A stretch of DNA of 64,000 nucleotides from Pseudoroseomonas cervicalis (GTDB lineage: Bacteria; Pseudomonadota; Alphaproteobacteria; Acetobacterales; Acetobacteraceae): contig NZ_JAUTAJ010000004.1 of NCBI RefSeq assembly GCF_030818485.1, positions 434,001 to 498,000 of the forward strand, read 5' to 3'. Shown here piece after piece: positions 16,511-50,448 of this stretch (its first letter is position 1; each line of letters begins with the position of its first letter). A program made the position numbers and the translations under genes. A model generated the notes under the pieces. It saw only the letters and a program-made list of their open reading frames with translations, did no database searches and had not been told where the DNA came from.

Positions 16511-16569
16511 GGCAGCCTGATAGAAAAAGATGGGGGTCCGGGGGAATTCCTTCCCCCGGACTCTTTTTT
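16511..16569 (+). repeat. Dispersed intergenic element, copy 1, with terminator palindrome
   Basis: ggcagcctgatagaaaaaga leads into the palindrome: arm gtccgggggaa (16536-16546), loop ttcc, arm ttcccccggac (16551-16561), then tctttttt. It acts as an intrinsic terminator for the nuo operon. The layout (GGCAGC, A-rich run, GGGGTCC, GAATTC-centred stem, T-run) is shared with the copies at 31929 and 47281. Confidence 0.85.
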
Positions 16570-19959: not shown

Positions 19960-21129
19960 TCAGCGCGCCCTGGCTTCCGCCGTCGCCGGCGAGGAGCGGG
20001 GCGTGGTGGGCGCGAAGGGCGGCAGGGCCCGCGCCAGATGATGCGCCGGGCGCTCCACCAGCCGGAACATCAGCGCGGCCACGGGCAGCGACAGCAGCAC
20101 GGCCAGGGCGCCGATCTGCCAGGGCTCGGCCCGGTCGCGCAGCGCATGGGTCAGCGCCAGCAGCACCGGCATATGCGCCAGGTACAGGCTGAAAGAAATC
20201 TTCCCCAGCCAGAGCAGGCCCGGATGCCGCAGCGAGCGGGCGAAGGGCCCGTCGCGCTGCGCCAGCAGGATCAGCAGGGCGGAGCCGGCGATCACGCCGT
20301 AATCATGCGCCGCCATCGCCATGACCAGCACGGCGAGGCCGGCGGCCAGCGCCTGGGCGCTGTCCAGGGTCTTCGGCGGGCGCAGCGCCAGCACGGCGCC
20401 GGTGGCGAAGGCGGGCAGGAAGCCGGCGCTGGCCGCGAAGGTGGCGGGCAGGCTGCCGCCCAGCGAGACCTGGCCCTCCGGCATGCCGGCCAGCCGCGCC
20501 ACGCCGGCGCCGAGCAGGGCGATGGCCAGCAGCCATTCGGGGCGGTGCCGCAGCAGCAGGGCCAGCGGCAGCAGCAGGGCGATGCGCCATTCATGCACCA
20601 GCGACCACAGCACCGGGTTCAGCTGGAAACCGTCGCCATGCCGCAGCAGCAGCGCCTGGCCGAGCAGGTCGGGCCAGTTCCAGGGGGCGGCCCAGGCGGC
20701 GCCGGCGACGATATGCGGGCTGCCCGGCGGCAGGGGCGCGCGCCAGGTCAGGCTCTGCAGCGCTGCCGAGAGCAGCAGCGCGCCCAGCACCGGCAGGCCG
20801 AGCCGCAGCGCCCGCTGCACCGCGTAATGCGCCCAGCCCGGCCAGGAGAGCACGCTGCCGGGGCTTCGCGCCTCCTGCCGGGCCAGCGCCCGGGTCAGCA
20901 CATAGCCGCTGAGCACGAAGAAGAAGACCACCGCCTGCCGGCCCGTGGCCAGCGGGCGCAAGGGGGTCTCGGCCACCGCCCAGACCAGCCAGCGGGGCAG
21001 GTCGGGCAGGGTCAGCCACACATGGTGCAGCACGACGATCAGGGCGGCGATGCCGCGCAGCGAATCGAGTTCCACCAGCCGGGCGGCGGGTGGGCGGGCG
21101 GTGGTCGAGGCAGGAAGATCGGCCGGCAT
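19960..21129 (-). CDS. Acyltransferase 3 family membrane protein
   Basis: The family transfers acyl groups (often O-acetyl) to surface glycans or other extracytoplasmic substrates. The 389-residue product from ATG 21129 has about ten hydrophobic helices. The typical N-terminal motif is LVELDSLRGIAALIVVLHHVW, in which the His pair is the proposed active site, followed by GRQAVVFFFVLSGYVLTRALAR. GGGAG-type bases lie 4-8 bases before the ATG, whereas a TTG start at 21162 lacks such a site. The substrate cannot be read from sequence and no glycan cluster surrounds it. It is convergent with rnj. Confidence 0.85.
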   Translation of the reverse strand: MPADLPASTTARPPAARLVELDSLRGIAALIVVLHHVWLTLPDLPRWLVWAVAETPLRPLATGRQAVVFFFVLSGYVLTRALARQEARSPGSVLSWPGWAHYAVQRALRLGLPVLGALLLSAALQSLTWRAPLPPGSPHIVAGAAWAAPWNWPDLLGQALLLRHGDGFQLNPVLWSLVHEWRIALLLPLALLLRHRPEWLLAIALLGAGVARLAGMPEGQVSLGGSLPATFAASAGFLPAFATGAVLALRPPKTLDSAQALAAGLAVLVMAMAAHDYGVIAGSALLILLAQRDGPFARSLRHPGLLWLGKISFSLYLAHMPVLLALTHALRDRAEPWQIGALAVLLSLPVAALMFRLVERPAHHLARALPPFAPTTPRSSPATAEARAR

Positions 21130-21382
21130 GGCGCTCCCGGATCCGGACGGGCCAACGCGCAAGGCGGCGGCCGGGGACGGTGAGATGCGGTCATCGGCGG
21201 TGGACCGCAGGCGGGCCCCTCAGCTTGGGCGAGGGGATGGCAGGGCCAACCCCCGATCACGCACTCGGTTGCGCCGCACCCATCACGGTGGGGCGAGCCC
21301 CCCTCCCGCCGCGGGGCAGGCCGGCCCTTCCTCGCCGCCGCGCCAGCGCCTATGTCCCCGGAGCGACGGAGGGAAGGCTGCG

Positions 21383-31928: not shown

Positions 31929-31986
31929 GGCAGCACGGAAGAAAGGAAGGGGGTCCAGGGGGAATTCATTCCCCCTGGCCTTTTCT
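31929..31986. repeat. Dispersed intergenic element, copy 2, with terminator palindrome
   Basis: ggcagcacggaagaaaggaa leads to the palindrome ccagggggaa (31955-31964) / ttccccctgg (31969-31978), then ccttttcttg. It lies between the convergent chemoreceptor and GNAT genes. Its stem is symmetric, but the T-run serves the + strand. The layout is the same as the copies at 16511 and 47281. Confidence 0.85.
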
Positions 31987-47180: not shown

Positions 47181-47338
47181 GCCGTTTTTTTCGGGCTGCC
47201 GCCGTCCCGTTGAGAGGCGGGACACGACACTGGGCCGGAGCGGATGCTGCGAGTGCGGCGACCCCGTCGCGGCCCTGACCGGCAGCTGGCAGAAAAAAGA
47301 AGGGGTCCAGGGGAATTCATTCCCCTGGCCTTTTTTTA
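47181..47338 (+). repeat. Composite intergenic repeat, copy 3 with terminator palindrome
   Basis: The gap between gloA and the convergent hydrolase consists of three repeat modules. A tcgggctgccgcc module (47191-47203) carries a gtcccg/cgggac hairpin. A second module runs from gcgacc (47258) through ctgaccggcagctgg. The terminator module is an A-rich run, then ccaggggaa (47307-47315) / ttcccctgg (47320-47328) and cctttttttat. The first two modules recur at 60102-60382 and the third at 16511 and 31929. The T-run suits termination after gloA. Confidence 0.8.
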
Positions 47339-48542: not shown

Positions 48543-49296
48543 ATGTCAGCACCGGCCATCAACCCCCGCCTCGAACCTTTCCGGCTGCGTGGGGCGAATT
48601 TCAACCTGCTGGTGCTGCGGCTGCTCGATCCGCGGGCGGAGGTGATCGTGCCCGCGATCGCCGACCAGTTCCGCCGTGCCCCGGGCTTCCTGCGCTTCGC
48701 GCCGCTGGTGCTCGGCCTCGACGACCTGAACGTGGCGCCGCATGAGGTGGATTTCGCGACGCTGGCGGGCGAGCTGCGGGCGATCGAGATCATGCCGATC
48801 GGCACGATCGGCGGCTCGCCGGAGCTGCGCGCCGCGGCGCAGGGCGCCGGGCTGCCGCCGCTGCGCGCCGCCGGGGGCGGGGAGGAGAAGGTGCCGCTGC
48901 CCGAGCCGGGGCCCGCGGCCAGCGCCGAGCCCCCGCCGCCGCCGCCCCTGCCACCCGGCACGGCGCGGCCGACCATGATCATCGACCATGCGGTGCGCGC
49001 GGGGCCAGCGCATCTGGGCGCAGGGCGCCGACCTGATCGTCAATGGCACGGTCAATCCAGGCGCCGAGGTGATCGCGGATGGCAATCTGCACGTCTATGG
49101 CGCGCTGCGCGGCCGGGCCATCGCCGGCGGCGCGGACAATATGGAAGCGCGGGTCTTCGCGCTGAATTTCGACCCGGAGCTGGTCTCCATCGCGGGCTAT
49201 TACGCGGTGCGGGAAGGGCTGACGGAGGCCCCGATCGGCAAGCCCGTGCAGGTGCGGCTGATCGGCGAGAACATGCGGTTCGACCGGCTGGGCTGA
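48543..49296 (+). pseudogene. minC: Septum site-determining protein MinC, frameshifted
   Basis: MinC inhibits FtsZ assembly away from mid-cell. The N-terminal FtsZ-binding domain is read from ATG 48543 (MSAPAINPRLEPFRLRGANF) to MIIDHAVRAG at about 49001. The C-terminal MinD-binding/dimerisation domain (QRIWAQGADLIVNGTVNPG, later LHVYGALRGRAIAGG) continues in the next frame to the TGA at 49294-49296. Removing one base in ggggcc at 49001-49006 would restore 250 codons. Unrepaired, the first frame runs out of phase to 49340, past the minD start. It could be a true mutation, a phase-variable tract or a sequence error in a homopolymer. minD and minE are intact. Confidence 0.9.
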
Positions 49297-49327: not shown

Positions 49328-50146
49328 ATGGCGCAAGTGATCGTGGTGACGTCCGGCAAGGGAGGGGTCGGCAAGACCACAAGCTCTGCCGCCTTCGCCA
49401 CAGGTCTCGCCCAGACCGGCAAGAAGACGGTGGTCATCGACTTCGATGTCGGGCTGCGCAACCTTGACCTGATCATGGGCGTCGAGCGGCGCGTGGTGTT
49501 CGACATCGTCAACGTCATCAGCGGCGAGGCGAAGCTGAACCAGGCGCTGATCCGCGACAAGCGGGTCGACACCCTCTCGATCCTCCCCGCCTCCCAGACG
49601 CGCGACAAGGACGCGCTGACCAAGGAAGGCGTGGCGCAGATCATCGACGAGCTGAGCCAGGAATTCGACTACATCCTGTGCGACAGCCCGGCCGGCATCG
49701 AGAAGGGCGCGCTGCTGTCGCTCTATTTCGCCGACCAGGCGATCGTCGTCACCAACCCCGAGGTTTCCTCGGTGCGCGATTCCGACCGCATCCTCGGCGT
49801 GCTGCAGTCGAAGTCGCGCCGCGCCGAGGAGAAGAAGGAGCCGGTGAAGGAGCATCTGCTGGTCACCCGCTACGCGCCCGAGCGCGTCGAGCGGGGCGAG
49901 ATGCTGAAGCTCGAGGATATCCGCGAGATCCTGGCGATCCCGCTGCTGGGCGTGATCCCGGAGAGCGAGAGCGTGCTGAAGGCGTCCAACACCGGCAATC
50001 CGGTGATCCTGGACGATGGCAGCAATGCCGGCCAGGCCTACAAGGATGCGGTCGCCCGCTTCCTGGGCGAGGACCGGCCGCACCGCTTCATCGACCCGGA
50101 GAAGAAGGGTTTCCTGTCCCGTCTGTTCGGGGGGAGGGCTGCATGA
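49328..50146 (+). CDS. minD: Septum site-determining ATPase MinD
   Basis: MinD is a membrane-binding ATPase that carries MinC and oscillates with MinE. The 272-residue product has the deviant Walker A SGKGGVGKTTSS (K11 and K16), the switch IDFDVGLRNLDLIMG, Walker B-like YILCDSPAGIE, and a C-terminal amphipathic membrane-targeting helix EKKGFLSRLFGG. aggagaga lies 7 bases before the ATG. It starts 31 bases after the minC stop and overlaps minE by 4 bases. Confidence 0.97.
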   Translation: MAQVIVVTSGKGGVGKTTSSAAFATGLAQTGKKTVVIDFDVGLRNLDLIMGVERRVVFDIVNVISGEAKLNQALIRDKRVDTLSILPASQTRDKDALTKEGVAQIIDELSQEFDYILCDSPAGIEKGALLSLYFADQAIVVTNPEVSSVRDSDRILGVLQSKSRRAEEKKEPVKEHLLVTRYAPERVERGEMLKLEDIREILAIPLLGVIPESESVLKASNTGNPVILDDGSNAGQAYKDAVARFLGEDRPHRFIDPEKKGFLSRLFGGRAA

Positions 50147-50448
50147 GCTGGCTCGACGTCTTCCGCGGCACCCGCAAACCGGCCCCCGTGACCCCGGCGG
50201 GGGCGGCCAAGGAGCGGTTGCAGATCGTCCTCGCCCATGAGCGCATCAGCCGCACCGGCGATGATTTCCTGCCGCGCCTGCAGCGCGAGCTGATCCAGGT
50301 CGTGGCGCGCTATGTCGCCATCGACCCGAAGGCGGTGAATGTCTCCCTCGACCGCGGGGGCGACATGAGCACGCTGGCGATCGAGGTGGAATTGCCGGCC
50401 CCCGCCGGCGAGAAGCCCGGCGCCGAGGCCGGCCAGAAGGCGTCCTGA
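50143..50448 (+). CDS. minE: Cell division topological specificity factor MinE
   Basis: MinE stimulates MinD ATPase and drives pole-to-pole oscillation. The 101-residue product has the N-terminal membrane helix MSWLDVFRG, the anti-MinCD segment AKERLQIVLAHERISR, and the dimerisation domain LQRELIQVVARYVAID with LAIEVELP. The 15-residue Ala/Gly tail is not conserved. Its ATG lies in the minD stop (ATGA). The stop codons of minE and of the convergent transporter lie in a 7-bp inverted repeat, tgagcgg/ccgctca (50446-50452, 50485-50491). Confidence 0.95.
   Translation: MSWLDVFRGTRKPAPVTPAGAAKERLQIVLAHERISRTGDDFLPRLQRELIQVVARYVAIDPKAVNVSLDRGGDMSTLAIEVELPAPAGEKPGAEAGQKAS

Follow-up and report, generated by a model that had tools for sequence, protein, structure and literature searches.

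Very probable assembly origin of the frameshift between the two domains of chromosomal minC in Pseudoroseomonas cervicalis

Introduction

The closest described counterpart of the locus studied here is the chromosomal MinC of Pseudoroseomonas/Teichococcus (Acetobacteraceae) minCDE operons. The two share both Pfam domains, the linker between them, the minC-minD-minE gene order and the sequence of both MinC pieces. They differ in that the domains of the locus analyzed here are offset by one base and lie in different frames. A literature search for Roseomonas with minCDE returned nothing.

Single-base insertions that break conserved genes are also known from another source, as residual indels of long-read assemblies after window-wise polishing with Racon and the like. 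The default Racon window is 500 bases. An excerpt of one paper describes the Racon consensus as computed in non-overlapping windows (PMC11232133), and an excerpt on VeChat states a window of 500 bases (PMC9636371). In the portions of the literature retrieved, no description of assembly errors right past multiples of 500 was found.

Here we analyze a 64,000-nucleotide stretch of the P. cervicalis genome (hereafter the window; positions 434001-498000 of contig C4). The genome itself is referred to as G000, its nearest relative as G010, and two other genomes used for comparison as G016 and G005.

Results

The minC domains lie in two frames upstream of intact minD and minE

A sequence-only reading of the window had claimed that the two domains of minC are in different frames while minD and minE are intact. 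Open reading frames and Pfam matches confirmed this arrangement:

48543..49004, plus strand: minC N-terminal (FtsZ-binding) domain and linker, frame 0 (PF05209, residues 13-84, E 2.3e-9)
49001..49006, plus strand: GGGGCC site, where the nearest relative has one base fewer (net), judged by alignment and relatives' codons
49006..49296, plus strand: minC C-terminal (dimerisation and MinD-binding) domain with stop codon, in the other frame (PF03775; open reading frame 48988-49296)
49328..50146, plus strand: minD, intact (open reading frame of 272 amino acids; CbiA and AAA_31 domains)
50143..50448, plus strand: minE, intact, overlapping the end of minD (PF03776, E 4.8e-20)

The MinC_N frame extends from the ATG at 48543 up to HAVRAG at about 49004, and its PF05209 match scores 37.7 bits (cut-off 27.3). 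The MinC_C domain, in the frame opened at ATG 48988, matches PF03775 with 92.2 bits (cut-off 33.2; E 2.4e-26); its coding part ends at 49293, followed by a stop codon at 49294-49296. The gene thus has both MinC domains and lies directly upstream of minD and minE, and as assembled it has no single reading frame for the two domains. The N-domain frame stays open past the junction, with its stop only at 49338-49340.

The surplus base had been placed in GGGGCC at 49001-49006 and taken for a G. The site is upheld, the identity of the base is not: GGGGCC of the window corresponds to GGGGC in G010, and in other relatives the glycine codon before CAG is either GGC or GGG, so the extra base cannot be assigned to one letter. 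In contig coordinates the site is C4:483001-483006, just past a multiple of 500.

Most related loci read through the site in one frame

Beginning where the linker ends, the DNA of G010 (contig stretch L019) is 96% identical to the window (1719/1783), which is one base longer at GGGGCC. In the genus, the N and C pieces of the chromosomal copy are in one frame in 14 of 16 other genomes; in the remaining two, a contig end cuts the locus before the N domain. The 14 include G010, which carries an N run in the linker upstream of the site, and its reading was tested only outside that run; at the GGGGCC site itself it has a single frame. The G010 contig contains 48 kb of N in 400 kb.

Checking the same site in related strains, as the sequence-only reading had proposed, was extended to 110 related loci, assembled from two sets (30 and 80) with some records in both. 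At 98 loci the N-domain match and the C domain share one open frame, and seven loci are cut by a contig end. At four more the frame is open with the N-domain match absent at the search sensitivity used, and at one the frame is open with only a weak N match, in another frame. No clear split of minC was found among the 110. In addition, a database MinC of 250 amino acids (P0001) matches both pieces exactly, the complete N piece (154 residues) forming its start and residues 7-102 of the C piece its end; its cluster holds four member sequences from two contigs, the longest of 2377 bases. Among the matches listed there is also a 186-residue protein of Pseudoroseomonas wenyumeiae with MinC_N only (P0071, contig of 3.45 Mb). 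Within the linker its tail seems to leave the frame, which may be due to a similar error in another assembly.

These comparisons bear on two biological interpretations. The first, raised in the sequence-only reading, is a programmed frame change, by which slippage of the ribosome or polymerase would yield some full-length and some truncated MinC. The short G run at the junction speaks for it. A programmed frame change should, however, be conserved in relatives, and the judgeable related loci read the site in one frame, 98 of the 110 being continuous; nor is there an early stop past the site in the N-domain frame. We consider this explanation unsupported and exceedingly improbable. The second interpretation takes the two pieces for separate genuine genes, with a stand-alone C-terminal domain encoded from ATG 48988 onward. 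This ATG does open a frame of 102 amino acids, and short MinC_C-only proteins exist in the database (among the best 120 of 256 matches). The top two of these (P0121 and P0122), however, come from the G010 contig with the N run in the linker, while some of the others, among the matches listed, are labelled partial and many are on short contigs. A ribosome-binding site before 48988 is not evident by eye, and no such split occurs at any of the 110 loci. A true split therefore has hardly any probability. Since the judgeable related loci are continuous, both interpretations were rejected.

Neither minC domain shows decay

Codons of the two pieces were compared with those of G010. The N domain (first 109 codons) contains 11 synonymous and no non-synonymous differences, and the C domain (96 codons after the site) contains seven and none. 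The linker (24 codons before the site) has five synonymous and one non-synonymous difference; for minD the corresponding numbers are 17 and three. Judged by these substitutions, neither minC domain has decayed. The break, if real, would be very young.

A second Min set resides on a plasmid-like contig

The genome contains a second minC, which encodes a protein of 248 amino acids with both domains and is located on the 120-kb plasmid-like contig C1 (L001, 1072-2999). It is followed by a diverged minD (282 amino acids) and, in place of minE, by a gene for 81 amino acids with no Pfam family match at E 0.01. A 93.5% identical stretch is present on plasmid pL11-D of P. cervicalis PL22-11A, where the order is minC, minD, a hypothetical gene, an HTH regulator and replication initiator A. 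The MinD of the second set belongs to a group of its own in the tree (15 rows, support 100/100), and two MinC_C matches are found in 14 of the 16 other genomes of the genus as well. Close relatives of the second minC-minD pair thus lie on plasmids, one of them beside a replication initiator gene. The part of the literature returned by a search on a second minC/minD copy held nothing relevant.

A true chromosomal break would, given this second intact minC, still leave the genome with a minC. One could suppose that chromosomal minC is truly broken and that the MinC encoded beside the diverged plasmid-like minD serves the chromosomal MinD-MinE oscillator. If this were true, control of the division site would have been handed over from chromosome to plasmid; we regard it as very unlikely. 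The sequence-only reading had also allowed for a truncated MinC, with MinD and MinE in some other use. The undecayed domains and the second intact minC-minD pair, which is not visible from the window, speak against that option.

Dispersed palindromic elements, about 55 bases long and with a core resembling CGGGGGAATGAATTCCCCCG, were noted as well. Three are in the window (16517-16558, 31942-31985 and 47281-47334); 12 were counted in 464 kb of this genome, nine in 400 kb of G010, and four and two in 400 kb of G016 and G005, respectively.

One-base insertions are in excess just past multiples of 500

Isolated one-base differences were extracted from blastn alignments. In a region around the site (region B, with 346,736 bases aligned and events kept if the 30 neighbouring bases held no more than 6 mismatches), 11 of 49 G000 insertions relative to G010, that of minC included, fall at residues 0-9 modulo 500, with 0.98 expected (binomial p 3e-9, uncorrected for the choice of bin, the pattern having been first noticed in region B and then tested on it). 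Only one of 47 deletions falls there, and only two of the same 49 insertions when G010 coordinates are used. An insertion near a block border accompanied by an excess of such insertions, as a block-border error would produce, is thus found in region B.

A second count used a different filter and took in positions -2 to +14 around multiples of 500. For G000 insertions it gave 10/58 against G010 (2.0 expected), 8/37 against G016 (1.3) and 7/40 against G005 (1.4); the respective deletions gave 2/50, 2/37 and 0/40. Control comparisons of G016 with G005 in both directions gave 2/67, 3/62, 0/62 and 0/66 (2.1 to 2.3 expected). Less clean in the same range were events missing from G010, counted in G010 coordinates (6/57, 1.9 expected), and G016 against G000 (4/38, 1.3 expected).

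Independent replication in further regions was weak or absent. Region A (C4:1-200000, 118,623 aligned bases) has a weak excess, 2/23 at residues 0-9 (p 0.077), and region C (C4:1100001-1300000, 123,459 aligned bases) has none (1/21, 0.42 expected). When periods from 100 to 2000 were scanned with the insertions of regions A and B together, 500 ranked first, with a phase-corrected p of 9.6e-7, or about 0.002 once corrected for 1901 periods; in region B alone, period 125 ranked first and 500 second. The best deletion periods reached only 0.004 to 0.015. For the 13 events at residues 0-9 in regions A and B, the residue climbs along the contig (rho 0.76, p 0.003), as expected if block borders were fixed before the extra bases came in.

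Other conserved genes of the contig look frameshifted

A first frameshift census was set aside, many reference open reading frames being in false frames, and was repeated with a filter on G+C content by codon position. In conserved open reading frames of the 464 kb around the site, the filtered census yielded 13 distinct calls in G000. Six of them, including minC, start 0-9 bases past a multiple of 500 in contig coordinates; the call at 267003 is one of the six and has a short first stretch (40 residues), and the calls at 267003 and 339005 are absent from the isolated insertions listed against G010. The other seven start outside this range, several being unrelated to the 500-base pattern. In six of these seven the first stretch is only 22 to 68 residues long and loosely placed; the seventh, at C4:580407, marks the loose edge of a break, and the base inserted in that break aligns at C4:580509. 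By this test there were two to seven calls for G000, zero to three for the controls G016 and G005, and one for G010.

Further conserved genes with an apparent frameshift, due to one base inserted just past multiples of 500, lie near C4 positions 297000, 501500, 580500 and 581000, and one gene near C4:580500-581000 was apparently hit just past two successive multiples. A possible extra base at C4:454003 (window position 20003) is in a poorly aligned stretch, where 10 neighbouring mismatches led the region B filter to discard it; it falls in the 3' part of a 400-amino-acid open reading frame on the minus strand (19960-21162). Completeness of G000 is 95.1, other genomes of the genus having 97-100 in 15 of 16 cases and 71 in one.

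Discussion

The minC frameshift is, we conclude, very probably an assembly error rather than biology. The position of the site, the excess of insertions just past multiples of 500 around the window, the intact relatives, the exactly matching intact protein and the undecayed domains all favour this explanation, and of the options named in the sequence-only reading it is the sequencing error that they bear out. The rival to be weighed against it is a true and very recent one-base insertion inactivating chromosomal minC, made tolerable by the second minC-minD pair or by a mild effect of MinC loss. Short single-base runs do gain bases by slippage, and with a second intact pair in the genome the loss might be borne. 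Against a true insertion stand the same location just past a multiple of 500 amid an excess of such insertions, the lack of decay in either domain and the existence of the intact protein. We consider a true insertion unlikely.

An assembly error could have arisen as follows. If the contig consensus was derived block by block, each block being about 500 bases long, the polishing would occasionally have added a spurious base where a block begins, and one of these would have landed between the two minC domains. Such a base at a block border would account for the position of the frameshift, its rarity and the lack of decay. This block-wise polishing mechanism is inferred. As with errors of window-wise polishing, the insertions of G000 follow block position rather than gene, a likeness to Racon-type polishing in general.

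For similar finds there is a cheap check, namely whether an apparent frameshift lies just past a multiple of 500 in contig coordinates. Since other genes of G000 look likewise affected, frameshifts reported from this genome should be treated with caution. Reading the frameshift as an artefact removes the false lead of a split MinC; in the living strain, the chromosomal minCDE operon is most likely intact and ordinary.
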